Virus record (IMG/VR): IMGVR_UViG_3300049846_001619
Coordinates: 1 to 48,601 of that record
Source: a virus
Direction: 5' to 3' (one strand)
Length of the DNA: 48,601 nt
Shown here: in pieces, positions 7,622-39,427 of the stretch
Position numbering within the stretch: the stretch's first letter is position 1
Layout of the letters: each line of letters opens with the position of its first letter
Translations under genes and position numbers: made by a program
Notes under the pieces: generated by a model
Databases searched by the model: none
The model's input: the letters and a program-made list of their open reading frames with translations, nothing else
Told to the model about the DNA's origin: nothing

Positions 7622-7939
7622 GGTAGGGGTCTGGAACCCTACAAGTCGGTCTAAAGAAATCGCTGGCTTACGTGAAAAGTCCCGAAGGCGATTTCCTTGA
7701 TCTTTTTTCGTTTTGACGTGCCCGCGTGTAGAGGTCGCAAATGGCCCTTTGGGGTAGCCGACGGGGTAGATCCGGGTAGCCTTGGATGGTCCGAAAAGTG
7801 AAAACACTTCGACGGGCCAAGCTACTGACCGATTCAAAATCGAATTAAAAAATGATTTTTTTGTTGCGGGATAATTCGAGACGTGTAACATTCGCCCTCG
7901 CTCTGAGTTTCTTTTCGTTCGTGTTGCTCGCACGGCAAG

Positions 7940-7975
7940 CCCGATTAATCCTGGCAAGGTGAGAATCGGGTTTTT
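7940..7975 (+). terminator. Rightward hairpin with T run (possible terminator)
   Basis: CCCGATT (7940-7946) pairs with AATCGGG (7964-7970), with 17 bases between, and is followed by TTTTTGCTTTTT. It looks like a weak plus-strand terminator, yet no plus-strand gene lies upstream of it. It could end a small antisense or non-coding RNA, or be a chance hairpin. Confidence 0.35.
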
Positions 7976-8081
7976 GCTTTTTCTGATTGCGCGTTTACAC
8001 GTACCTCAAAAGCCGGCTAGATGCCGACAGTTTTTTTACTACCCAAACAAACTTTTCTTACCCTCTGCTCAAAAAGCGGGC

Positions 8082-8119
8082 AAAAAAAAATAGTCGCCCC
8101 GTTTGTTAAACGAAGCGAC
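8082..8119 (-). terminator. Rho-independent terminator of the recombination operon
   Basis: On the minus strand GTCGC and CGTTT pair with AAACG and GCGAC in one interrupted stem (8119-8093), followed by TA and nine T (8090-8082). It lies 34 bases past the stop of the gene at 8153 and separates the recombination genes from the replication genes. Confidence 0.85.
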
Positions 8120-8152
8120 CGGCTAAAAACGAAGGCCGGGAAACTGCTCTAC

Positions 8153-8668
8153 TTAAAATGGTACCGTGGAAGGATCAGGCGCATCAAATCCGCCCGGTGA
8201 GCCGCGCAACGGTGCAGGTGGTTCCCCTTGAGCCGCCGCAAATGACGCTTGAATAAACCCACGCACATAGCGTGCATCCTTTTTGTCCTCTTGCACAATC
8301 AACTTGCACGGTCTACCGATCCACTCGCCAATGCGTTCGCGTGCGTTAGTTTCCATTGCCGTATGATCATCGCCTTCAGGCTCAGCTAGCCCAAGGCCAA
8401 CATAGGCTTTGCAAAGGCGTGCCATACCTTCGATATACCATTTCATGGCGTCGGGCCGATTGTCGCAGGACGCCATGGTGTAGTCTGGAACAAACCAATC
8501 GACCTTAACTTCCTTGTCGATTGTTGAGCGCACCATGATTTCCCACTTTAACGCACCGTTCGGCATCGTCACTTCCTTGATCGATTCGATATGGCTCGGA
8601 TCAAAGATGCCGACGGGATGGCGTCCGATGTTTTCCTGAGCTTTTTTGATTTGGTCTTTGAGATTCAC
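8153..8668 (-). CDS. Putative single-stranded DNA-binding or recombination accessory protein
   Basis: I start at the GTG at 8668, which overlaps the upstream stop as GTGA and follows a good AGAGGA site; the product has 171 residues. The body holds mixed strands and helices. The tail is flexible, glycine/proline-rich and acidic, ending PDPSTVPF, like the terminal PF tail by which SSB proteins bind partners. It lies in one operon with a Sak4-like ATPase and a RecB-like nuclease, a setting where phage SSBs are common. I cannot see an OB fold by eye, so the call rests on the tail and context. Confidence 0.45.
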   Translation of the reverse strand: MNLKDQIKKAQENIGRHPVGIFDPSHIESIKEVTMPNGALKWEIMVRSTIDKEVKVDWFVPDYTMASCDNRPDAMKWYIEGMARLCKAYVGLGLAEPEGDDHTAMETNARERIGEWIGRPCKLIVQEDKKDARYVRGFIQASFAAAQGEPPAPLRGSPGGFDAPDPSTVPF

Positions 8669-15275: not shown

Positions 15276-15678
15276 TTTGTTCCTCGCTTGCAAGTTGATC
15301 TAATTTCTTTTCGAGTAGAGCAGCTGGCACGCCAACGCCAACCCAGCTGAGACCTTTAGCCATGGTCCACGCAATCTTGGACAGTAAGGCGGCAATCTCA
15401 TCATCACGTTTTGTTTCAGTGCGTTTGGCTATCGCTATCATGCACTCAGCCAGGCCGCGGAATAACAGCATCGCAGCAATCGCCATGGGCACGCCGCCCA
15501 CAAGCCAATCGGGCGCAATCTGGCTGAATCGCCCCCACAATCCGGGGTCTGCAATGTAACTGCCGTCTAGATAGGCAGAGGCATTGGTCGCAGTGTCGGT
15601 AGCCGCGCTTTCATGCGCGAACACCGGAACATAAAAAAGAGTAACAAGCAAAAGCTGTAGCGTTTTCATTTGTTTCAT
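15217..15678 (-). CDS. Putative holin or lysis-cassette membrane protein
   Basis: The protein has 153 residues. A signal peptide or first span (residues 5-22) is followed by a short loop, a strong hydrophobic segment (WLVGGVPMAIAAMLLF and on, about residues 59-83), a third weaker one (around MAKGLSWVGVGVPAALL) and a charged, disordered tail. Position directly after the endolysin and before the spanin-like genes suggests a holin. No holin family signature is seen. The start overlaps the endolysin stop as ATGA. Confidence 0.5.
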   Translation of the reverse strand: MKQMKTLQLLLVTLFYVPVFAHESAATDTATNASAYLDGSYIADPGLWGRFSQIAPDWLVGGVPMAIAAMLLFRGLAECMIAIAKRTETKRDDEIAALLSKIAWTMAKGLSWVGVGVPAALLEKKLDQLASEEQNANSNPNPGTDTKSGPSVM

Positions 15679-16175
15679 AGAACCCCCTTCGGCAGCTGTA
15701 AGCGCTGCCTGACTTCATTCCACACGCTCGGCAGACCACCGCTAGACCTTAAGCGGCGTGCTAAATTTAAGGTCATTCCACATGTTAGCTGAAAGTGTGG
15801 GGCTTCGGGAAAAGCTGAACCTGGTGCCCCTAGCCAAGTCAAACCATGCTTCATACCGATTTGACCGACTAGTTTCCAGTCACCTGTCCACGTCCATGCT
15901 ATCTTTCCGGAAACAATGGGCATGCCTAAAAATGCAACATCAAAGGCTAAGCCGTAGTTATGCCAAGATGCGCCCGCTCGTGCATTCGTCACGATAGCGC
16001 CAGAGGTGAGTCTACCTTGATTGTAAAGTTCCTCTTGGCGAGCATCGCTGCGCAAAGTTTCAAAAATCGCAACATTCAACCCTTGCGCTCTGGCATCCAT
16101 AATAGTTAGGTGGGCCATCGCGACTAGTTCGGGCATTAGCACGTCTAGTGAATCGATGCGCTGCGTGATCCCCAT
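15675..16175 (-). CDS. Endolysin, M15-type L-Ala-D-Glu peptidase
   Basis: The protein has 166 residues. Zinc ligands and catalytic residues of the VanY/M15 fold are present: SWHNYGLAFDVA (H72, D79) and FPEAPHFQL (E124, H127). The preceding FETLRSDARQEELYNQGR is the usual substrate-binding start of the family. It should cut peptide cross-links of Gram-negative peptidoglycan. No signal peptide is seen, so export relies on a holin. A ribosome site TAGGGG precedes the ATG. Confidence 0.92.
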   Translation of the reverse strand: MGITQRIDSLDVLMPELVAMAHLTIMDARAQGLNVAIFETLRSDARQEELYNQGRLTSGAIVTNARAGASWHNYGLAFDVAFLGMPIVSGKIAWTWTGDWKLVGQIGMKHGLTWLGAPGSAFPEAPHFQLTCGMTLNLARRLRSSGGLPSVWNEVRQRLQLPKGVL

Positions 16176-16358: not shown

Positions 16359-17285
16359 CTAGGGTTTTGCGCCGGATGCTTCCAATGTTTGACCGCACGC
16401 GAATAGCCATGCTGCTAGTCTACACGCCTCACCACAAGTGACGTAGCTGCCGGCATAACCATCATGGTCTAGGCAAGCGTCAATTGCTGGGTTTAGATCA
16501 CCAGTGAAACGTCCTAGGGCCATGGCAAAGAGCGGGTTTGCTGGGTCTCTTGTGTAGTGTTCCTGTAGGCGTGACAGCATCATATTATCAAGATCAAAAC
16601 CGGCATCGTCGGGTAGGTCATGCGCTATGCGCTCCCTCTTATCGGCAATTGCACGGCTAACTTGAACGCGATGCCAGATATTCATGACCTGCTGAAAGGC
16701 GTCGTAAGCGTCTAAGTCACCGGGATAGCGTTCAGGCCAAAACCGTCTAGCATCCTCGATGCCAGCCAGAGCGTATTGACTTTGGTATAGCCTACCAACT
16801 ATGGCCGGCGTGTAGACGCCTCGGAAATCGCCGGTAGGTGCCCCCATTTGCCAGTTTGATTTGACGCCGTAGGCTATATGCCTCGCCAGCAATTCCTTAT
16901 CGCGGTTGGTCCAAATGTAGGCCAGGAGCACGTTAGCGTCGAGACGTGACCAATCAGACCAAGCTATGTCACCAGCTGGCCCCTCGATGCATGCAGGGCA
17001 AATCCTAAACTTCCCTGGCTCTGATTCGACAATCGTTAGATCAATCGAGCCGTGACCCGCGGCCGCACCGTAAAGAGCTGACCAAAGAAAAGCCTGGTCG
17101 CCTGTCGGTACTAGCCAACCGTTGGGATCGGTCAAGGACTTGGCTTGATCAAGTGACGTGCGGTAGGCCGCCACGAGCTCGCCAGCCCTTGGTGGCGTTG
17201 GCCTAAACGAGCCTTTTACGTCCTCGTTGTACCCGCAACTAACGATTGCCAAGGCCATGGGCATGGCGAGTAGGAATCTGGGCAT
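16359..17285 (-). CDS. Lipoprotein, paralogue of the one at 21648 (308 aa)
   Basis: I start at the ATG at 17285, after an AAAGGA site. Residues 1-18 (MPRFLLAMPMALAIVSCG) are a lipoprotein signal with the cysteine at 17. The body resembles a phage/prophage lipoprotein-type family of unknown function with a W-x-AL start, a KEL-x-RHIAYG motif and a W-x-MG-x-P motif. The other copy at 21648 has the same order (KD-x4-VNQFIDYG, then W and P-x-LV). It may act in the envelope, for example in excluding other phages; that is inferred from lipidation alone. Confidence 0.7.
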   Translation of the reverse strand: MPRFLLAMPMALAIVSCGYNEDVKGSFRPTPPRAGELVAAYRTSLDQAKSLTDPNGWLVPTGDQAFLWSALYGAAAGHGSIDLTIVESEPGKFRICPACIEGPAGDIAWSDWSRLDANVLLAYIWTNRDKELLARHIAYGVKSNWQMGAPTGDFRGVYTPAIVGRLYQSQYALAGIEDARRFWPERYPGDLDAYDAFQQVMNIWHRVQVSRAIADKRERIAHDLPDDAGFDLDNMMLSRLQEHYTRDPANPLFAMALGRFTGDLNPAIDACLDHDGYAGSYVTCGEACRLAAWLFACGQTLEASGAKP

Positions 17286-17776
17286 ATCAAATCCTTTAGC
17301 AATTGGATGCACTCCATGGGTGTCGTAACCCCAAAGTCACGCCCAAGGGGATAGGACTTGCCGCAGATTTCAGCGTAGGCATCAAGGAATGAATAGAGGA
17401 TTTCAGTGCAGATATTCTGTGTGTCACGTTGCAGTTTGTTTCGGCGTGGTAATGGAATTCCAAAAAGTTTGCGCTTAGCAGCTGCGCAAGCGAAATACAT
17501 GAACCCATGACTATCGTAGTGAGCGCCTACCAAATCCCTGATCATCCATTTTGCTAGATCGTTTTCCCGTTCAACCCGCAAATGGATTGCAGCCACGTCT
17601 GAATAATGCGGGTAAACCTTTTCCACGCTTTCAAGGTGAAAGCCATTCCCGTAAAAGTGCATAGCCATCATACTGCGTCCAAAGACAATCAGTAGATGGC
17701 TAGCTGGCTCGCCAAGTCCCCAACGGATTATTTTTGATCCGGCAGTGTTGGCTTTGACTGCGGCAATTTTTATCAT
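17216..17776 (-). CDS. Putative permuted NlpC/P60-type (YiiX-like) cysteine hydrolase
   Basis: The protein has 186 residues. A central SHLLIVFG carries a histidine and a later NICTEIL carries a cysteine, with Y-x-SHGFMYFAC between. The His-then-Cys order is that of the permuted papain-fold family YiiX/YebB. Those enzymes probably cut amide bonds in peptidoglycan or lipids. The start overlaps the upstream stop as ATGA and the 3' end overlaps the lipoprotein gene by 70 bases. No signal peptide; it may be carried in the virion or act in the cytoplasm. The family call is tentative. Confidence 0.42.
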   Translation of the reverse strand: MIKIAAVKANTAGSKIIRWGLGEPASHLLIVFGRSMMAMHFYGNGFHLESVEKVYPHYSDVAAIHLRVERENDLAKWMIRDLVGAHYDSHGFMYFACAAAKRKLFGIPLPRRNKLQRDTQNICTEILYSFLDAYAEICGKSYPLGRDFGVTTPMECIQLLKDLICPDSYSPCPWPWQSLVAGTTRT

Positions 17777-21292: not shown

Positions 21293-21651
21293 GACTTTTT
21301 CCCCAACGCAATCACGGTGCCGAGGCCTGTTGTATTGGTCCCATGCTCCCATCGCACTAGCAAATAGCGGAATGCCAGCCTATCCCTGATCCAAATGCGG
21401 GAACCACTGCTAGCGTGCGGTTTGATTTCAGCACCGTCTATTCTGGTGCCTACTGAATCGAATGACGATAGGTCGGGAACGGATGAGGCATAGAGCGTGA
21501 ACAAGCCATCTAGGGCATTGAGGCCAGACCAAAATACGTGAACTATGCCCATCGGCATGTCCTTGAAGTCGATCACGCTAAAGCCCAAATCGCCTGCCAG
21601 GGATACCTGGGAAGCGACTATGGCCCGATGGCAGTTGGTAGCCTCAATCAT
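21289..21651 (-). CDS. Hypothetical virion-associated protein (120 aa)
   Basis: The start overlaps the upstream stop as ATGA. The sequence is beta-rich (GIVHVFWSGLNALDGLFTLY, later SRIWIRDRLAFRYLLVRW) and resembles small phage structural proteins with a carbohydrate-binding-like layout, but I cannot name a family. Its place between fibre genes supports a tail role. Confidence 0.55.
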   Translation of the reverse strand: MIEATNCHRAIVASQVSLAGDLGFSVIDFKDMPMGIVHVFWSGLNALDGLFTLYASSVPDLSSFDSVGTRIDGAEIKPHASSGSRIWIRDRLAFRYLLVRWEHGTNTTGLGTVIALGKKS

Positions 21652-22616
21652 TTCGCACCAGCAATGAACATTGTTAGGCCGAATTCGGTAGCGGGATGAG
21701 TCACAAAGTCCTCATTCGGGCATGGTAGCCAATCGGGATTTACCTTGTCACCGCTGAGAAAATCGCGCTGATAAAGGTAATCGGTGCAATGATTGTCATG
21801 GTTATTTGGCAAATGGTCTTTGGGCCAGTGCAATTCATCGCCCAAGAGCTCATAAACCCGCGTCATATCGCCGCCAGAATAGAGCGCCACTATTGCCTGA
21901 TATAAGGCATTCTGACGTTCACGCTCTGCAATGGCTTTGATGGTCTGATTGTCGATATCCGAAATGCTGCCGTTGACTTGGCCCTTAAGCCAAATAGCCA
22001 GCATGCGTAGGTGGGCCTCAAAATCATTCGGTATCAAAATCTCTGGAATGTCCGCGAGCGCCAAACCATTTAGCCTCGATTGCATTGCTCGCAATAGCTC
22101 AACTAGCCCAGGTGACGCTATGCAACGGCCTAAATAGTCTGTTGGCGTCGCCGCATGGCAAATCTCCCAGCTATGAGCATTCCCATAGTCGATAAATTGA
22201 TTTACCCATTGCAAATCTTTTTGGACCCATGCGCCGACCATTCGCATTAGCAGGTGGTCTTTAGAAAAGCCTGCCTTGTTCCCTAGGATCTCGTTTTCAT
22301 CATCAGTTAGATCATAATTCCAGCAAGCAGTATGGTCTGGCGATCGATGCAAACGGCCTGATGAATCGCTAAAAACGGATAGGTCAATCGGGAATAGATC
22401 GCCGCATGACAAGGCAAACAAAGACGTGAAACCAGCAGCATCACACGTTTGATTCACGTATCGCTTTGCCTCATAATCTGCCCTGGCCATTTCACAGTAT
22501 GCGCGACGCTGCGATTCCGGCGGGTTTGCCGACGTGCTAGGCGGTGATTCGCTATGCTGTTTTGAGCATGCAAACGTAAATAATAAAAATAGAAATATAT
22601 ATTTCATTTTTATCAC
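21648..22616 (-). CDS. Lipoprotein, paralogue of the one at 16359 (322 aa)
   Basis: The GTG at 22616 overlaps the fibre stop as GTGA; an ATG at 22607 (MKYIFLFLLFTFACSK) is the more usual lipoprotein start. The cysteine of FAC is the likely lipidation site. The body has a CDAAGFTSLF segment, a KDLQWVNQFIDYG motif and paired cysteines. It can be aligned with the lipoprotein at 16359 over several motifs and belongs to the same family, unnamed to me. It lies between two fibre genes. Confidence 0.7.
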   Translation of the reverse strand: MIKMKYIFLFLLFTFACSKQHSESPPSTSANPPESQRRAYCEMARADYEAKRYVNQTCDAAGFTSLFALSCGDLFPIDLSVFSDSSGRLHRSPDHTACWNYDLTDDENEILGNKAGFSKDHLLMRMVGAWVQKDLQWVNQFIDYGNAHSWEICHAATPTDYLGRCIASPGLVELLRAMQSRLNGLALADIPEILIPNDFEAHLRMLAIWLKGQVNGSISDIDNQTIKAIAERERQNALYQAIVALYSGGDMTRVYELLGDELHWPKDHLPNNHDNHCTDYLYQRDFLSGDKVNPDWLPCPNEDFVTHPATEFGLTMFIAGAK

Positions 22617-25600
22617 CGTATTCGACGCGCGGTTAGCCGGTAGCTAATAGAAGGTGTGCCTGTGAAAGTGATATTCGTGCGTAGGTATATTGTCTGTGAG
22701 CTAGATGATGAAAACTGCACATTCGGAAGTGTTGACATAGAGTTATAAGTTGCGGTAGCAGGCGCAAAGTCGGCCTGTGAATAGCCATTGAGAGCGCTTG
22801 TTGCGCTTGAATTTGTTGAAACAAGAAATTCGTTTCTCGATACCGATGTTCCAACTGCAACATACAAGGCTGCGGTAACGTCCCAATCTCCTGCGCTAAG
22901 AGATATTGAGGTAACAGTAAACCACGAGCCCGATCCACCACCATAAGACACATTTTGATTATTAGATGATATTAGCTCACCAACATACCCTGCGGGGCCT
23001 GTGCTCCCGTTGGTTATTCCCGGCACCCCACTAGCACTGACCAGCCCTGCTGAGGTGCCTGGGACTACTATGCCGAAGCCTACGGCTGCGCCGCCTGATA
23101 CTTTGCGGACGCGCCATTTATCAGTGGAGTTTCTAGGATAACTAGCCCCCGCTGTACCATATCCATTCCCGGAGGTTACACGCCCTCCCTTACTGAAGTA
23201 GACATCCGCCTTATTTGAGCCAGAAGCTAAGTAATCGAAGGCTATACCATAATATGAAGTGGTTCCAGCCTGTTGTTGCGTTTCTAATGTCTGGTATCCA
23301 ATAGTCTGTTGTATCGGAAGAAAAGGGCCTCCATTCTCAGCTATCTCTAATACCAATAAGTCATTGGTTTGTATCGGAGAATTGAATTGAACCTGCTTTC
23401 GTCTTTGTGTTGTTCCTGTGGCCGCCGTGATAGTCGGTATCAAGCTGCCGGCTGGTCCATATGCGTAGGAAGTCGTATCGTCAGCGTCCGAAGTGCTGCT
23501 GTTACTCGCGAACTCCACATCATTCTGTGCTAACTGAACCGTCCCGGAGCCGGCCCATTCGGCGATGGGGATCATAACATCCATAGCAACCACATCACCG
23601 CTAGCAGCTGTGACTGGAGTTCCGGTAGTCCACAACGCTATTCCATTTGGTCCATAGAACCGAGGGCCGCCAGTGCCTATTATATAAGTGGCTGTACCCG
23701 TGTAAATGGTCGTGGCGGAAGCATCCCAGAACTCAACTGTACCAATAACGGATCTATCCCCTAATGTAGGGGGAGCTAGGAGTGATTCATTTACCGTGTA
23801 TCCTGTGGGAAAGTTAATAGTAGTCGTACCAGTCGCGGCACCTGCGAACTTACCGGATGCCCTAATGTGCATGGTGTCGCCAATACGTCGCCACTGACCT
23901 GAGAAAGTAGCACTTCCATCAAAACCATTTCCAGTGGGGGTGTAGCTGTTCCACTGTCCAACCACCGCCCCCTGCGGCTGTATCCCCGGTCCTACTGTGA
24001 CAGCATTGAGCGCGATATAGCTGTTGGTCGTGCCTGCTACCCGCGTGATGCGCAGCTCCAGGTTGGCTGCCGTGCTAGTGTCAAAGCTCGTCTGAAATTG
24101 CCCATTGAGTGCTGGGATGCTGGTTACACCAGAAGCGTCTGTGGACAGCGCAATAGCCGTATAAGCGCCGCTGTAGTCCGCTGCTGCGTTGGAGTACAGC
24201 TCAAGCTTGAAGTCGCCAGAGGCATACGCCGTGCCTGTGCTGTAGAGCTGCTGCCACGCTATCTTGAGCTTGCGATTTTGTAGAGCTGTCGGCAGCGTCA
24301 TGCGCAAACGGGTGTAACCCGTGCTGCTGCCGTCGTTGAGAATCTTGATACCGTTGGTCTTAGTAGGAGAGAGCGGTATCTCTGCCGCAGTCGTGGTGCG
24401 CGAGCTGGTCGTACCAGTGCCGCTATCCACCCAATCCCCGACACCGTTGGTGCGGCTCCCATCGAGCGCGGTATCTGCATCGGGGTTGATAACGATGTTG
24501 ATTTCGCCGGCACCAGAACCGCTGCCTACTAAAACCTCGTTACCGAATGAATCCAGCTTGTAGAGCAGGCCATCAGTTTTTGGATAAATTTTATTAAAAC
24601 CTGATGACGGGTTAGAAGGCGTCGAAATTTGTTGCAGATTAAGTGCCGAATCGATCCTAGGCGTGGTCAATGTTGGCGTAGTTAAACTAGGAGAACTAGC
24701 AAATACCGCTGCGCCCGTTCCAGTTTCATCAGTTAAGGCTGTAGCCAGGTTTGCACTTGATGGCGTGCCTAGAAACGTAGCAACACCGGAACCAAGCGAG
24801 GTTATGCCGGTACCGCCATTGGACGCCGAAAGCGTGCCAGTAACTGCTGCGGATTGACTAAGATCAAGAGCACCAAAGGCAGGGGCACCACCACCGGAAG
24901 GAACCCGCAAAGGCTGGTAAGCCGATCCCGCGCTAGTCGCTGTAGGTGCGCCGCCAGTGCCGCCACCTAGTACCACGCCATTCTGTGTTAGAGCTAACGA
25001 GCTCGCTATTGTGTTAGACCCGGAATAGTAGGGCACGCCGCCGCTAGTGCCGCTTGCTAGGCCAGTTCCACCTTGAGACACGCTTAGAGGCGTGGTGAGG
25101 CCCGATAGGCTGGTAATGTCACTATTTACACCGCTTGCCGCAGCGCTAAGATTTGACCTAGCACCGCTAGCCGTACCCGATCCCGTACCGCCTTTTGAGA
25201 CGCTAAGCGTTCCACCAATGCTGTCTAGCGTTAGGTTTCCCTGCTCAACCTTTAGGCCAGACGCACTCTTAGAAAGTGTGGTGCCATCCAATTCAAGGCT
25301 AAAGGTTTGACCGCTTAGCTCAATACCATTGCCATCAGCGAAGTAAAGACCAGTGCCGAAATTTTGAAACCAGACTTGTCCTGAAAAACTGGTTAGCTCA
25401 GTCGATTGGTAGTAACCCTTATTTTCGTTTGTACCTTCCGAAACAATGACGGCAGCGCCATTTAGCTCATTATAGGAATCAGCATCATTTGTCCTAGTAG
25501 GAGCACCAGAGGCATTCACAAAATAAATACCGTTTTCAGACGAAGTAGCTTGGTCCTTGATTAAAATGCGATCATTTGTTGCAACTGTTACACCGCCAAC

Positions 25601-26800
25601 GCTATCACCATTTTCAAATGACGTTGCTAGTGTTCCAGCAGCCGTTGTTGCTGTCCTAACTGGCTGTTTCCAAGCTATACCATTCAGGCCTGAGTCAAAC
25701 TGTTGCTTGGTGACAGGCTCAAGCGGATTCACAGCATCAGCTGCAAGCGTGATCGCTCCAGTCATCACGCCGCCGGACTTGCTTAGCTTTGAATCAAGTT
25801 GCGTTTGAATCGATGACGTTACGCCGTCGACGTAACCTAGCTCAGTATTGCTAACCGATCCCGTTCCTAATTTTGTAGCGTCAATTGCTGCCGAGGCGCT
25901 CACGTCGGCATTCACAATGCTGTTTGATAGGTTCAGCTTGCCATAAGCGATGGCTGCCGAGTTGGATACATCGCCATTTACGATTGAACTAGTCAAATTC
26001 AATTTGCTGTAGGCGATTGCCGCCGATGAATTCACGTCATTATTTACAATCGAATTGCTCAGATTCAATTTGCTGTAGTCAATCGCAGCGCTATTAGCCA
26101 CGTTGGCATTAGCGACCTTACCAAATGACAGAGCGCCGCTGCCGTCGGTTATCATTACTTCGTCGGCATTGCCATCACTTGTAGGCAAGGTCAACGTATA
26201 GGATGAGGCCAGAGACGGCGCAGCAATTTGCACGTAGTCACTGCCGCCGAATTCTTGGAATTTCAACCAGTCATAGACCGTTGAGCTAGTGAGTAGCAGC
26301 GTGGAAAGGCCGGTTATGGTTGAGCCGCTAAAGGTCACGTTAGACGTGCTAGCGGTCGACAAGCCACGCAAACCGGAATGGACTTCAACCGAGAAATCAT
26401 GAGGCCCACCGGAACTAGGTGCTGTTATGTCGATCTTGGTTTTAGTGAATCCTGCCGTTGCCGCGATAGTCCAACCGGATGCCGTAGGGTTTTCAATGCG
26501 TGTTTTTGCTGTTCCTACGCCGCTCCAGAGCACTACCGTCATATCAGAAAACGGCACGTTGAAATTATGCTCATAGGTGGTCACGGCTGAATTGGATACC
26601 GAGGTATATTCCTGGTAGCGCGTGTCCACGTTATTACTGATCTTGGTGTAAATGTCCGCTATGTGCGTGTGTAGCGCTGCGCCGCCAGTATGCCCTAGGT
26701 TCGGATGGTCCAGCTTCATGCGCCCTAGGCTGGTTGTATTGTCAGCGCGTGCCGATAGGACAGCAAACAACGCTAGAACAAACGCAAGATACCTAGCCAT
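22613..26800 (-). CDS. Large tail fibre / receptor-binding protein with a signal peptide (1395 aa)
   Basis: A ribosome site AGGGG precedes the ATG. Residues 1-19 (MARYLAFVLALFAVLSARA) look like a cleavable Sec signal, which is odd for a tail fibre. The body has repeats of the type NSAAI-x-YSKLNL / SIVN-x-DV (four copies, residues about 235-310), SVSQGGTGL-type runs, a fibre segment with KPVRTATTAAG and NDRILIKDQ, and a TPSNPSSGFNKIYPK module related to that of the two neighbouring fibres. The last 600 residues are beta-rich and probably bind the host. It is the longest fibre in the window. Confidence 0.85.
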   Translation of the reverse strand: MARYLAFVLALFAVLSARADNTTSLGRMKLDHPNLGHTGGAALHTHIADIYTKISNNVDTRYQEYTSVSNSAVTTYEHNFNVPFSDMTVVLWSGVGTAKTRIENPTASGWTIAATAGFTKTKIDITAPSSGGPHDFSVEVHSGLRGLSTASTSNVTFSGSTITGLSTLLLTSSTVYDWLKFQEFGGSDYVQIAAPSLASSYTLTLPTSDGNADEVMITDGSGALSFGKVANANVANSAAIDYSKLNLSNSIVNNDVNSSAAIAYSKLNLTSSIVNGDVSNSAAIAYGKLNLSNSIVNADVSASAAIDATKLGTGSVSNTELGYVDGVTSSIQTQLDSKLSKSGGVMTGAITLAADAVNPLEPVTKQQFDSGLNGIAWKQPVRTATTAAGTLATSFENGDSVGGVTVATNDRILIKDQATSSENGIYFVNASGAPTRTNDADSYNELNGAAVIVSEGTNENKGYYQSTELTSFSGQVWFQNFGTGLYFADGNGIELSGQTFSLELDGTTLSKSASGLKVEQGNLTLDSIGGTLSVSKGGTGSGTASGARSNLSAAASGVNSDITSLSGLTTPLSVSQGGTGLASGTSGGVPYYSGSNTIASSLALTQNGVVLGGGTGGAPTATSAGSAYQPLRVPSGGGAPAFGALDLSQSAAVTGTLSASNGGTGITSLGSGVATFLGTPSSANLATALTDETGTGAAVFASSPSLTTPTLTTPRIDSALNLQQISTPSNPSSGFNKIYPKTDGLLYKLDSFGNEVLVGSGSGAGEINIVINPDADTALDGSRTNGVGDWVDSGTGTTSSRTTTAAEIPLSPTKTNGIKILNDGSSTGYTRLRMTLPTALQNRKLKIAWQQLYSTGTAYASGDFKLELYSNAAADYSGAYTAIALSTDASGVTSIPALNGQFQTSFDTSTAANLELRITRVAGTTNSYIALNAVTVGPGIQPQGAVVGQWNSYTPTGNGFDGSATFSGQWRRIGDTMHIRASGKFAGAATGTTTINFPTGYTVNESLLAPPTLGDRSVIGTVEFWDASATTIYTGTATYIIGTGGPRFYGPNGIALWTTGTPVTAASGDVVAMDVMIPIAEWAGSGTVQLAQNDVEFASNSSTSDADDTTSYAYGPAGSLIPTITAATGTTQRRKQVQFNSPIQTNDLLVLEIAENGGPFLPIQQTIGYQTLETQQQAGTTSYYGIAFDYLASGSNKADVYFSKGGRVTSGNGYGTAGASYPRNSTDKWRVRKVSGGAAVGFGIVVPGTSAGLVSASGVPGITNGSTGPAGYVGELISSNNQNVSYGGGSGSWFTVTSISLSAGDWDVTAALYVAVGTSVSRNEFLVSTNSSATSALNGYSQADFAPATATYNSMSTLPNVQFSSSSSQTIYLRTNITFTGTPSISYRLTARRIR

Positions 26801-35188: not shown

Positions 35189-35611
35189 CTATTTCTTTTT
35201 ACCGAAGACCGATTCAAGTACGGTCTTTGTCCAGTCCCGCACGTCAGCCCATACTCTTTGATAGGTGCGATCACGCCACCGCGTAAGAAACGTGGGTAGG
35301 ACTTCGTTCAGCATATCAGATTGATCAGATAGGCCCCCGGCGGTAGGCCCTAGTCCCGTTTCGGTCAACACTAGGCACGCATTGAATAGCTCGCCCATTT
35401 CCTCAGACCAACGGGCCTTGCCAGGGCAAAAAGGAAGCCGTAGGCCATACTGATCCACGGCTATAGGCTTGTCTGCCAACTGGTTGTAACCAGGCTCTAG
35501 GCATCGCCTGGCCTTGGCTACCTTCATGGACTTGACAGTGCACGCCGCGCAATCGAATTTCTTACGGGCATCGTCGGATGCCCAGTGTAGATCGACCAAC
35601 GCGGCTATGAT
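35189..35611 (-). CDS. Tail assembly chaperone, -1 frame extension (lambda T-like part)
   Basis: This frame has no ribosome site for its first start codon (TTG at 35599) but joins the upstream gene by a -1 slip at 35611-35617, reading K-K then IIAALVDLHW. The extension adds 140 residues, with a cysteine pair (CAAC) and a C-x3-K/R-W motif (CPGKARW). The full fusion is about 295 residues. In lambda-like tails such a minor fusion product recruits the tape measure; the same is inferred here from position and the slip site. Confidence 0.82.
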   Translation of the reverse strand: MIAALVDLHWASDDARKKFDCAACTVKSMKVAKARRCLEPGYNQLADKPIAVDQYGLRLPFCPGKARWSEEMGELFNACLVLTETGLGPTAGGLSDQSDMLNEVLPTFLTRWRDRTYQRVWADVRDWTKTVLESVFGKKK

Positions 35612-36075
35612 TTTTTTGCTTCGGACCTAGTAGCAGTGAGGACTTGCGCCTGGTAGCAGGCGAATATGTCGGCTACTGCGCCAATGCGATCTAGGTAGGC
35701 TAGGGTTTCGTCCGCAGGCTTGCCCTGGATATTTGCCTTATAGATCACCTGTTCCTCTAGGGGTAACTCTGGCGGGTTTTCGATACCCTTGAGCGTGAGC
35801 CTAGCCACGGTGAATTGCCAGGTGCCTAGGGCCACGGCTGGCGCACCTTCCGCCGACGTACCGCCCATCATAGCGTTTTTTATTTTCTCAGCATCCGAAC
35901 CCTTGAGCTCTAGGTTAAGAATCAGCCGGGAAGGCGTTTCGCTCAGCTGTAATTCTGATTCATCAAGGCTTTTAAGGTATGAATCGTAGGCGTCACGGTT
36001 TTTTATTGCATCGTCATTACGGCAGACCAATTTAATGCACGATAAATCGCGTTTGCGTTCCATTCTAATGGCCAT
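35605..36075 (-). CDS. Tail assembly chaperone (lambda G-like)
   Basis: Starts at the ATG at 36075 behind AGGGG; a longer frame to 36117 runs into a terminator. The 156-residue protein is helical and charged, with a LEEQVIYKANIQGKPADET segment and a DRIGAVADIFACYQ helix common in small tail chaperones. It ends EAKKS just after the slippery A AAA AAA at 35617-35611. It lies between the major tail protein and the tape measure. Confidence 0.78.
   Translation of the reverse strand: MAIRMERKRDLSCIKLVCRNDDAIKNRDAYDSYLKSLDESELQLSETPSRLILNLELKGSDAEKIKNAMMGGTSAEGAPAVALGTWQFTVARLTLKGIENPPELPLEEQVIYKANIQGKPADETLAYLDRIGAVADIFACYQAQVLTATRSEAKKS
35611..35617 (-). promoter_or_regulatory. Programmed -1 frameshift site (A AAA AAA)
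   Basis: On the coding strand the zero frame reads GCA AAA AAA TCA TAG, which matches X XXY YYZ with all A. Slipping back one base reads AAA ATC ATA GCC into the open downstream frame. The zero-frame stop follows one codon later. Such sites are usual in tail chaperone pairs. Confidence 0.85.
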
Positions 36076-36104
36076 GGCGTTTCCCCTAAGTATGATTGGT
36101 AGCC

Positions 36105-36138
36105 AAAAAAATAGCATACCTGGCGGGGCCAGGTATGC
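36105..36138 (-). terminator. Rho-independent terminator after the major tail protein
   Basis: On the minus strand an 11-base perfect stem (GCATACCTGGC with GCCAGGTATGC, 3-base loop, 36138-36114) is followed by TA then seven T. It lies 27 bases after the major tail gene, which is normally made in excess of the downstream proteins; partial termination here would serve that. Confidence 0.9.
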
Positions 36139-36165: not shown

Positions 36166-37773
36166 TCAGCCGTACCGTAGCTTGAGTGGATCTTTTTTAC
36201 CAGTCCCGGACTGGTAGAGCGTACCTTCAAGGGTCACGGTGGTTACACCGCTATCCGGGACCTCGATATTGGGCACTGACGGGATCCACTTGGGAGCGGT
36301 GATTTTCAAGAATCGTCCGCTTGCTTCATCGCCCAACACGATTTGCGGTGAGAACCCGCTAAATTCCCTGGTCCTTACCACCTGTCCAAAGGTCTCATTG
36401 GAAAGGTCAAAGGTCATGGACAGCGTGGCCGTCATGCGCGCCGCGGCCGCAAAGCCCTTGTTGGCGTCCGCCCCGAAACGGTTATCAAAGTCCGTGTGGT
36501 CGTTCGCAATCTTAAGGTTGGACGCCGTAAGGTCAACAGCCGACAGCGACGAATGCAGCTTAGCCGAACCCACTAGGTCGGTGTAGATGGCATCACGAGC
36601 CGTCTGGCCAACTGCACCTGGGTCCCACGGTACGATATAGCTATCATCAGCGACCGTAACCGCTGCACTGAGCACGACCGTTTCCAGGGAATCGTCAACC
36701 GAGACGACATAGAGCGAGCCATCCTGACCAGCCGTAATGGTCCTACCGTCCACGCCAACCATCATCACACGACCGTTGGCCTCGAAGCGCTCTGACTCAC
36801 CAGCATTCAAGATCACGTCGGTTGACCCTGATACCGCACCATTTAACTGGCCAATGCCAGCAATAAAGCTTTTGGCCGCCTTGCCGCTATATTTGACCGT
36901 AGCAGGGCCATCACCAGGAAAGTCTAGTTCCATGTCGCGGACGTAACCGCCAGTGAAATACTCGCCGAAGATAGTCGACACGCGAACCATCGACATGCTG
37001 ATGATTGGCAAGTCCTGCTCAAAATCGATGAAGGTTGCGCCAGTCGTTTTGCGCCCTAGTGCCGATTCAATGAGCAGCTGCACGGCGGTATCAATCGACG
37101 CGCCAGCGCTTCCGCTCATGTTGACGTAGGTACTGAAATCGAATTCTGCGACCTTCTTTTTCCTGATGATGCCGGTATGGAAACGACCCGAACGATGAGC
37201 ATTGGATTCAACCGGCTGGTTGTAGGTCATCCCGCCCGTAGTGTAGAGCAGGAAATCCTGATCATCAGTGCCAGCGCTTTCGGTACCGCCGTTGGCCGTA
37301 CCGAGTTTCAAATCATCGGCAATGTTGTTGGACGTGCCGTTAGCAATAACGACTGTCGCCGCAATGCCAGTTGACTGGTTCCAAACCGTGTACTGATCGG
37401 GGCCTGCGCCGTTGAATTGAACCCACACCCTAGCGTCCTGGCCATCAGCTGCCAGAGCGCTGTTGATCGCGGTTTCCAGTGCTGCCGCAATCAGGTTTCC
37501 GGTGTTGAGGCCTGCAACGGCAATCGAGGCCGTAACTTGAGTACCGCCCGAAACAGTAGCCTTTAGCGTCGCTGGCGTTGCCGCCGCGGTAATGTCGGTA
37601 CTGGCACTGACACCGCCTAGGGATTTGCCCTGCGTGCCGATAGTCGGCGGATTGAAGACCCTAGGCGTGGTCTCACGCTTGAGGTAGATCGCGCCGTCGA
37701 TGCCGAGGTTAAACCCCTGCTTATCGCCGCTATAAATTTGCGCGTAATTAGTTTTTGAGCGAAACTTGGCCAT
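36166..37773 (-). CDS. Major tail tube protein, with an inserted domain (535 aa)
   Basis: A ribosome site AGGGG precedes the ATG. The position between tail completion genes and the tail chaperones, and a C-terminus of beta strands (VTTVTLEGTLYQSGTGKK), fit a tube subunit. At 535 residues it is much longer than most tube proteins. A segment near residues 65-170 (ATLKATVSGG, AAALETAINSALAADG) looks like an added beta domain of the kind seen in some tail sheath and decoration proteins. Confidence 0.75.
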   Translation of the reverse strand: MAKFRSKTNYAQIYSGDKQGFNLGIDGAIYLKRETTPRVFNPPTIGTQGKSLGGVSASTDITAAATPATLKATVSGGTQVTASIAVAGLNTGNLIAAALETAINSALAADGQDARVWVQFNGAGPDQYTVWNQSTGIAATVVIANGTSNNIADDLKLGTANGGTESAGTDDQDFLLYTTGGMTYNQPVESNAHRSGRFHTGIIRKKKVAEFDFSTYVNMSGSAGASIDTAVQLLIESALGRKTTGATFIDFEQDLPIISMSMVRVSTIFGEYFTGGYVRDMELDFPGDGPATVKYSGKAAKSFIAGIGQLNGAVSGSTDVILNAGESERFEANGRVMMVGVDGRTITAGQDGSLYVVSVDDSLETVVLSAAVTVADDSYIVPWDPGAVGQTARDAIYTDLVGSAKLHSSLSAVDLTASNLKIANDHTDFDNRFGADANKGFAAAARMTATLSMTFDLSNETFGQVVRTREFSGFSPQIVLGDEASGRFLKITAPKWIPSVPNIEVPDSGVTTVTLEGTLYQSGTGKKDPLKLRYG

Positions 37774-37791: not shown

Positions 37792-38529
37792 TTATTTGAA
37801 TTGAATTACCGCATAGTCATTTGCCGATGCCTGCGCTGACACACGCACACGCCTTAGACTATCGGGCGTACAGGAAAGGCATTCAACGCACTTGCCCTTC
37901 CCTAGCCTCACACCATCGGTCTCTGTGTCGGTAGCTTTACCTACCGCTAGCCATGTCGAAGTATTCACGGCGTAATTACAAATTTTCCAACCCTCAAGGC
38001 CAGCCACGATGCTAGCCGATGCGATGGCAACGGCAGAGCTAACGCCTTGGGTTTTCGAGACTGAAAACCCGGACGTGCCTATGTTGCCATCAGTCGCCGA
38101 ACCTTTGGCAACACTAGTCACTATGACGTGCGTTGTAGCACCTGTTATCGTGAAATAGGTTGAGTAAGGCGCGGTATTAAGCGCAGTGCGCGTGTTACCT
38201 GCAACAGTCGATGCCGTGTCATTAGCCGAAATATCGACTTCAACTAACGTACAGCCACTAATTGCGGTTGGCGCAGTAGATCCGTTGGCCACGTCATACC
38301 AAGGCTGATAGCAATGCGCGTCATCAGCGTCATAGAAATAAAAATAGGTGCCACCAAGGCTACCCGATGAATCGCCGACAGCCGTAAAATCGGAAGCCTC
38401 GGCTACCGTTGGCGTGGCTTGGCTTTTGGTCTGCGTAACCGAGGTAACTGTCTTACCCGGTGCGCTGGTCTGCGCCGTAGCAGCAAGCGGTAAGGCGAGC
38501 AAAATAATATTCAAAAGCAATTTTTTCAT
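37792..38529 (-). CDS. Signal-peptide-bearing cysteine protein, paralogue of the next gene (245 aa)
   Basis: I start at the ATG at 38529, behind GGGAG; residues 1-20 (MKKLLLNIILLALPLAATAQ) form a Sec signal. The middle is a beta domain (ANDTASTVAGNTRTALN and on). The last 80 residues carry C-x2-C-x2-C (KGKCVECLSC) and VNTSTWLAVGKATD; I count over half of these residues as identical to the gene at 38563. No name is known to me. An exported protein inside the tail gene block is unusual. A virion or envelope role is possible; neither can be shown. Confidence 0.65.
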   Translation of the reverse strand: MKKLLLNIILLALPLAATAQTSAPGKTVTSVTQTKSQATPTVAEASDFTAVGDSSGSLGGTYFYFYDADDAHCYQPWYDVANGSTAPTAISGCTLVEVDISANDTASTVAGNTRTALNTAPYSTYFTITGATTHVIVTSVAKGSATDGNIGTSGFSVSKTQGVSSAVAIASASIVAGLEGWKICNYAVNTSTWLAVGKATDTETDGVRLGKGKCVECLSCTPDSLRRVRVSAQASANDYAVIQFK

Positions 38530-38562
38530 GATCAAAAATCTCCCTTTTCGTTAATAAGGCGA

Positions 38563-38946
38563 TCAGTTTTTGTATTGAATAATGGCGTAGCCGTTGGATG
38601 CCGCTTGGGCCTTGACCCTAGTAGCCTTCAAGGTCGCAGCATTACAATTCGTGCAGACATAGCACTGGCCCTTGTCAAGCATCACGCCATCGTCCGCTAC
38701 GTCGGTCGCCTTGCCCACGAGTAGATAGGTCGACGTATTCACCGCATCGTTGCAAATCTGCCAGCCGAGCAAGCCAGGGCTAACCGATGCAGCCGATATG
38801 GCCAGAGCCGAGGTAGTGCCTACGGTTGTATGTGTGTGGGTTAAGGTGTTCACGCGGGTATTTTGAAAAAATACCGCTTGGGCCTGAGCACCGCCGACGC
38901 TGAAAAGAAAACAGCAAGCCAACAACACTTTCATCAAACGATGCAT
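38563..38946 (-). CDS. Signal-peptide-bearing cysteine protein, paralogue of the previous gene (127 aa)
   Basis: Residues 1-22 (MHRLMKVLLACCFLFSVGGA) form a signal peptide. It is followed by a threonine-rich strand and the same C-terminal domain as the gene at 37792: GWQICNDAVNTSTYLLVGK, then GQCYVCTNC (C-x2-C-x2-C) and IIQYKN. It lacks the extra middle domain of its paralogue, which points to a duplication followed by insertion or loss. A ribosome site TAGGGG precedes the ATG. Confidence 0.65.
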   Translation of the reverse strand: MHRLMKVLLACCFLFSVGGAQAQAVFFQNTRVNTLTHTHTTVGTTSALAISAASVSPGLLGWQICNDAVNTSTYLLVGKATDVADDGVMLDKGQCYVCTNCNAATLKATRVKAQAASNGYAIIQYKN

Positions 38947-38956
38947 ACCCGAACCC

Positions 38957-39427
38957 CTATAATAAAAATGGTTTAGTCCGATAATGGACGATCACACGCG
39001 CTGTTGCAACTCGGTTGCCCTCGATCATGTGTAGGTCGGTCTCATCGCCAAGGCTTTCCAGCTGGTAGATTGATGGATGTATTGAGCGGAATTGGTCCAT
39101 GACTGTTGCCGTGGGGCTATTGGCCCATAGGCCCTTGGCGATATTCCGCAGAATTAAATTCATGCGCTCATCGGTCGATGTTTCCACGTCGAAAATCTGA
39201 ATTCTTAGGGACCATTGTACCTCAATCGCCCCATGCAAGTGCTTGTGGTTTTGTCCGTCGTCCAGCAATAGGACGGCTGGTAGCTGTTCCGGTGCTAGCT
39301 CCATGCCCATCGGTATATCATCGTAATAGACCGCTTTAAGGTCTATCGGATAACCGTTGGATGACTTGACTGTTTCGAGCCTAGCCTTTACTGCCTTGCC
39401 AATGTCAGACCGCAGGGAAGTACCCAT
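38957..39427 (-). CDS. Tail terminator-like protein (156 aa)
   Basis: Begins at the stop of the tail completion gene (TGATG overlap). A mixed alpha/beta protein with a pattern common to minor tail/terminator proteins: helix (IGKAVKARLETVKSS), strands (AVLLLDDGQNHKHLHGAIEV) and a long central helix (DERMNLILRNIAKGLW). Position between the HK97 gp10-like gene and the tube protein gives the call; no invariant motif is known. Confidence 0.65.
   Translation of the reverse strand: MGTSLRSDIGKAVKARLETVKSSNGYPIDLKAVYYDDIPMGMELAPEQLPAVLLLDDGQNHKHLHGAIEVQWSLRIQIFDVETSTDERMNLILRNIAKGLWANSPTATVMDQFRSIHPSIYQLESLGDETDLHMIEGNRVATARVIVHYRTKPFLL

Follow-up and report, generated by a model that had tools for sequence, protein, structure and literature searches.

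An uncultured siphophage group encodes one to three small proteins between two tail genes, at a point where well-studied relatives have none, and the question raised by this locus is what proteins with apparent export signals might do inside a tail operon. The stretch of DNA analyzed here (the window) is IMG/VR virus record IMGVR_UViG_3300049846_001619, 48,601 bases from an uncultured phage.

A paralogous pair between two tail genes

The late gene block of the window lies on the minus strand. In reading order it includes the large terminase (46267), a portal with a MuF-type end (43770), a protease region (42569), a probable capsid protein (41181), a head-tail adaptor (40111; phrog_442, E 1.2e-15), a neck protein (39427), and the tail terminator (38957). 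The two proteins under study, P1 and P2, come next, and behind them lie the putative tube gene (36166; 535 aa), two small genes, and the gene for a tape measure protein of 1531 aa. The phage is taken as a siphophage because no sheath was recognized in the window. Its large terminase is 30% identical to the closest isolate match, and the host could not be named because a search with the putative tube protein returned no match among isolate phages and genomes. The features referred to below are as follows.

38957 to 39427, minus strand: tail terminator, bordering the slot upstream (phrog_5078, E 1.4e-4; phrog_4204)
38563 to 38946, minus strand: P1, predicted-exported 127-aa protein with signal peptide and jelly-roll domain, four invariant Cys
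38881 to 38946, minus strand: P1 signal peptide MHRLMKVLLACCFLFSVGGAQA/ (rule-based prediction)
38644 to 38664, minus strand: P1 C-x2-C-x2-C motif, CYVCTNC (the fourth invariant Cys is C65)
37792 to 38529, minus strand: P2, predicted-exported 245-aa paralogue with an extra middle domain (ATG start at 38529)
38473 to 38529, minus strand: P2 signal peptide MKKLLLNIILLALPLAATA/ (rule-based prediction)
38050 to 38412, minus strand: P2 middle domain, residues about 40 to 160, predicted fold like the tail-sheath outer domain
37870 to 37890, minus strand: P2 C-x2-C-x2-C motif, CVECLSC
36166 to 37773, minus strand: 535-aa putative tail tube (major tail) protein, bordering the slot downstream (position, size, conservation)
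36114 to 36138, minus strand: terminator-like 11-bp stem and T run directly after the tube gene and before 35605-36117 (pattern match only)
22613 to 26800, minus strand: tail-fibre-type protein, 1395 aa, with signal peptide MARYLAFVLALFAVLSARA/D at 26744-26800, before a conserved N-terminal domain

A preliminary description of this DNA had reported two signal-bearing reading frames with about 80 C-terminal residues in common, more than half of them identical. Both are indeed present at 37792-38946 on the minus strand, and their homology is evident at the sequence level: BLASTP aligned P2 with P1 over 81 C-terminal residues, 47 of them identical (58%; E 9e-31 in a single comparison), including the conserved C-x2-C-x2-C site, which reads CVECLSC in P2 and CYVCTNC in P1. 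For P2, the ATG at 38529, behind AAGGGAG, was preferred over the listed TTG start. The middle domain said to have been gained or lost in one copy is specific to P2 (about residues 40 to 160) and, in a tree of 31 domains, is confined to P2 branches. P1-type and P2-type copies cluster in that tree mostly by position and not by phage, with few branches strongly supported, suggesting that the duplication is old. P1 and/or P2 found no relatives in Pfam, PHROG, isolate phages, or plasmids, in line with the earlier statement that the family had no known function, and a first genome scan with the shared domain was empty.

Of the two genes that flank the pair, the terminator has a family match (phrog_5078, E 1.4e-4); the tube is a candidate by position and size only. 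The putative tube protein has an insert-type domain at about residues 45 to 170 and matched no Pfam or PHROG family.

Distribution of the cassette

Relatives of P1 and P2 were found in about 20 viral contigs, one to three copies to a slot, and every relative with a readable neighborhood lies between a terminator and a tube homologue. The tube protein as a query retrieved 34 loci. Several loci show the same contig, and such cases enter the counts only once where this is noted. The gene-neighborhood survey called for in the preliminary description thus recovered a conserved slot, kept with one to three copies in about 17 tube-bearing contigs and empty in 13 of the 34 tube loci (three near-identical), where terminator and tube are 3 to 122 bp apart. 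No cassette was found elsewhere in the records with an empty slot, most of which are fragments. Since these 13 loci have the same tube and an empty slot, the cassette is accessory, present in zero to three copies at one site; nor is it needed for the tail, being absent in close relatives such as L031 (tube 67% identical). The tube tree implies about five changes of cassette state, at least four of them on well-supported branches. The slot is likewise empty in lambda, T1, and N15, where only 2 to 7 bp separate the terminator from the major tail protein directly behind it, and exported proteins are accordingly as unexpected at this site as had been claimed.

Where the cassette is present, the mature parts of the proteins have dN/dS values of about 0.04 to 0.13 (synonymous sites being near saturation), indicative of strong purifying selection.

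Predicted export, cysteines, and folds

The N termini of both P1 and P2 satisfy a home-made signal-peptide rule (not SignalP) based on a charged start, an uncharged hydrophobic run (h-region), and an AxA-like site. The rule was positive for 30 of 31 distinct family members versus 33 of 409 other ORFs (8%) in the same loci and, at a score of ≥30, for 29 members versus 7 other ORFs (<2%). The sole member missed, in L037, lacks only the positive charge. Among 112 annotated genes of lambda, T1, and N15 used as a control, a score of ≥29 flagged only Lom, RexB, Rz, Cor, u-spanin, and lysozyme, all of them envelope or lysis proteins, and no virion gene. By the same rule, the n-, h-, and c-regions and the AxA site expected of Sec/signal peptidase I substrates are kept across orthologues, the signal-peptide residues drifting (pN 0.39 to 0.60) while their character persists. 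The family alignments contain no conserved lipobox Cys at the cleavage site, the sites being of AxA type; an LLAC in P1 of the window falls near the start of the h-region and shows no conservation. We regard the predicted export of P1 and P2 as well supported by sequence.

The cysteines point in the same direction. Four are invariant across the 31 distinct members; in domain numbering these are C26, C56, C59, and C62, kept in 18 of 18 domains from the window and its relatives and also in a more diverse set of 17 domains. The mature proteins have an even number of Cys in 30 of 31 cases (four, six, or eight, with a single case of five), as expected of oxidized exported proteins folding in an oxidizing compartment, and the extra Cys of P2 lineages come two or four at a time, at positions that differ between lineages. 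The tube, terminator, and tape measure proteins of the window have none. Cysteine parity favors disulfides for the extra pairs, while the invariant four could form either two disulfides or a metal site; no relative with a solved structure was found for a zinc-versus-disulfide comparison.

The P1 model (mean pLDDT 84.7) is good from residue 31 onward, at 87 to 96 by block, and predicts a jelly roll for the domain common to P1 and P2. In Foldseek searches of the PDB, the Bacillus endospore appendage proteins Ena1B and Ena2A lead the list weakly (E 5.1e-4 to 9.3e-4). Ena1B gives a VIA Z of 7.4 over 87 residues, other jelly rolls score alike, and many short phage proteins match the P1 fold better than Ena1B and Ena2A do. 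The PM2 spike protein P1 and the remaining jelly rolls matched in the PDB (Z up to 8.2) were set aside as reflecting a common arrangement, not kinship. A 121-aa signal-bearing protein in L064 (16915-17280), with no Cys and encoded behind the fibre gene, outside the terminator-tube slot, resembles the common phage jelly-roll type by eye.

For P2 the model is poor overall (62.5), with the middle domain mostly at 75 to 90. That domain has a predicted fold resembling the outer domain of phage tail sheaths: it matches the cyanophage A-1(L) sheath (8kee) with a Z of 9.0 over 90 residues and a further run of sheath chains at Z 7 to 7.6. In sequence searches, three of seven members hit phrog_165 (tail sheath; best E 0.0017). 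A common origin with the domain of the tube protein was not supported by hhalign (probability 0.8%). The same type of middle domain is present, too, in phage proteins that are unrelated and have no signal peptide, L014 4365-5297, which resembles a head-tail connector, and L013 7719-8456; from these occurrences it looks like a mobile virion domain. In L058, a P1-type predicted-exported protein (7791-8537) has its jelly roll split by a 119-aa insert that is 64% identical to residues 47 to 167 of the same phage's tube protein. Only L058 shows a domain common to exported protein and tube, and its insert suggests that domains pass between tail and exported proteins.

Predicted signal peptides are also found on tail-fibre-type proteins of the clade. 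Of all control ORFs, the 1395-aa fibre gene of the window has the strongest signal peptide, and within a set of fibre N-terminal domains from the window and 15 relatives, four have one (the window, G027, G025, and G022, the last three from loci L077, L078, and L079). These four signal peptides end exactly where the N-terminal domain begins in the other relatives (11 distinct; two near-identical), which have none. Each relative genome searched has a single fibre N-terminal domain, and no alternative start of the G025 fibre leaves that domain whole. Further predicted-exported proteins lie directly behind the fibre gene at L065 13947-15185, L065 15169-16047, L069 5072-7110, L071 13764-14907, and L074 13338-13802. 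They include a 412-aa fibre-type protein in L065 (phrog_4492 tail fiber, E 2.7e-42) and one in L074 matching Pfam Collar (E 1.2e-12); L069 6070-7110 is Cys-rich. P1 and P2 are, on these predictions, one piece of a clade-level pattern in which proteins of tail-surface type bear signal peptides.

Other lipoprotein-like and predicted-exported genes also occur in the clade. Two lipoprotein-like proteins of the window, 21648-22616 and 16359-17312, have TFAC and IVSC sites, weak mutual similarity (24% over 143 residues, E 1e-5), and no Pfam or PHROG match; L068 14737-15621 is a 33% relative of the former.

Candidate roles and known systems

Our tentative preference is that P1 and P2 are exported, disulfide-bonded tail-surface modules that bind the tail when lysis mixes the compartments. 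As an optional add-on at one site, they would be made late, together with the tail proteins; late expression is suggested by a pattern search in which the coding strand around the cassette proved free of promoter-like sites and by the terminator-like stem after the tube gene (N15 has an annotated putative terminator at the same place). They would cross the inner membrane via Sec, be cleaved by signal peptidase I, and fold in the periplasm with disulfide bonds, each as a Cys-clamped jelly roll, to which P2 would add a sheath-outer-domain-like unit in front. There they would wait, outside the cytoplasm, until opening of the membrane by the holin lets the compartments mix, and then bind the tail exterior, and other exported tail-fibre-type proteins of the clade would join the tail alongside them. 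Tailed-phage virions assemble in the cytoplasm, so that joining after lysis needs an extra assumption. Homology, the fixed slot, signal peptides, paired Cys, and purifying selection are read from sequence and the folds from prediction, whereas Sec export, disulfides, late expression, and virion binding are inferred. The wider proposal, which we favor less strongly, is that Sec carries part of the clade's tail surface (P1, P2, and the fibre-type proteins) out of the cytoplasm, that some of this material is oxidized in the periplasm, and that it joins the virion only at lysis, as an extracytoplasmic last assembly step.

Superinfection exclusion or receptor masking, unlikely on its own count, is nearly as likely as joining of the virion. 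In that case P1 and P2 would remain periplasmic or sit on the outer surface, where they would prevent further phage uptake or keep progeny from sticking to debris and infected cells; T5 Llp and T1/N15 Cor have such an effect with a different fold. Cor and Llp, superinfection-exclusion lipoproteins, are likewise small, exported accessory proteins encoded beside tail genes and hold an intramolecular disulfide (PMC9586334), and the accessory distribution of the cassette, for which the tube tree requires at least four gains or losses, would suit such a role. P1 and P2, however, are larger, have virion-type domains, often come as two or three adjacent copies that differ from one another, and have a cleavage site without a lipobox. 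Superinfection-exclusion proteins are usually early, and P1 and P2 have no coding-strand promoter of their own. We place tail joining above exclusion because the parts are tail-surface modules and because in four phages a signal peptide precedes the sole recognized copy of the fibre N-terminal domain. "Virion surface or envelope modifiers," as first proposed, is still the right pair of options and is partly supported.

A self-assembling extracellular or periplasmic fibre or sheet of disulfide-linked jelly rolls, like the Bacillus endospore appendages, is suggested by the Ena1B and Ena2A matches at the head of the PDB list but improbable, as a Z below 8 is within the background of unrelated jelly rolls that score alike, mature P1 lacks the N-terminal connector Cys, and no member has an Ena-type Pfam match. 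It is just as hard to credit P1 and P2 with envelope remodeling or help in lysis after export (as an enzyme partner, scaffold, or metal-binding protein): they are Cys-rich, predicted to be exported, and in the late block of a clade with other exported and lipoprotein-like genes, but they are not near the lysis genes (the endolysin is at 15675-16175), their folds are of structural type, and beyond the Cys no conserved motif suggests catalysis. Least probable of all, despite the tail-operon position and virion-type folds, is that the hydrophobic N-terminal stretch is not a functional signal peptide and that P1 and P2 decorate the tail as ordinary cytoplasmic proteins, given signal-peptide character in nearly all members with the cleavage site placed immediately ahead of the mature protein, the even Cys counts, and a rule silent on lambda, T1, and N15 virion genes.

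In the textbook view, tailed phages are assembled wholly in the cytoplasm. With exported disulfide-type modules in a tail operon of phages that also have signal peptides on tail-fibre-type proteins, it becomes testable whether some of the virion is finished outside the cytoplasm or whether tail-type domains have instead been recruited for altering the envelope of the host. Whichever proves right, a family without annotation would gain a function. P1 and P2 hint at an undescribed late step in tail making or in host-envelope change.

Among known systems, the endospore appendage proteins (Ena1B, Ena2A, and Ena1C) may share with P1 a jelly roll with conserved Cys but differ in Cys pattern. No mature P1-type protein has a Cys before the ICN position, and so an N-terminal connector Cys for intermolecular disulfides is lacking. 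Eleven members gave no Ena-type Pfam match at E 1 and no sequence match. Closer in predicted fold are phage jelly-roll proteins in BFVD (A0A6J5MA51; Gordonia phage Bakery A0A514DGU0), with TM-scores of up to 0.78 on target; compared by predicted fold, they are about 10 to 22% identical to P1, unannotated, and about 90 to 100 aa long, many of the hits listed being of 85 to 100 aa with little room for an added signal peptide. The outer domain of contractile sheaths (cyanophage A-1(L), Milano, PhiTE, Mu) shares its predicted fold with the P2 middle domain, which in contrast sits on a signal-bearing protein in a phage without a recognized sheath. In the literature searched, with incomplete coverage, no case turned up of a tailed phage exporting tail proteins through Sec. 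A precedent exists for disulfides on phage tails, in Agrobacterium phage Milano, whose tail is linked by intersubunit bonds of sheath, tube, and baseplate; the text consulted mentions no export of these parts (PMC10811340). Cor (T1, N15, phi80) and Llp (T5) are the nearest to P1 and P2 as small exported phage proteins beside tail genes. They are, however, lipoproteins encoded next to a fibre or receptor-binding gene (after the fibre genes for Cor in T1 and N15), whereas P1 and P2 have sites of signal peptidase I type, a predicted jelly roll, and a gene position between terminator and tube.
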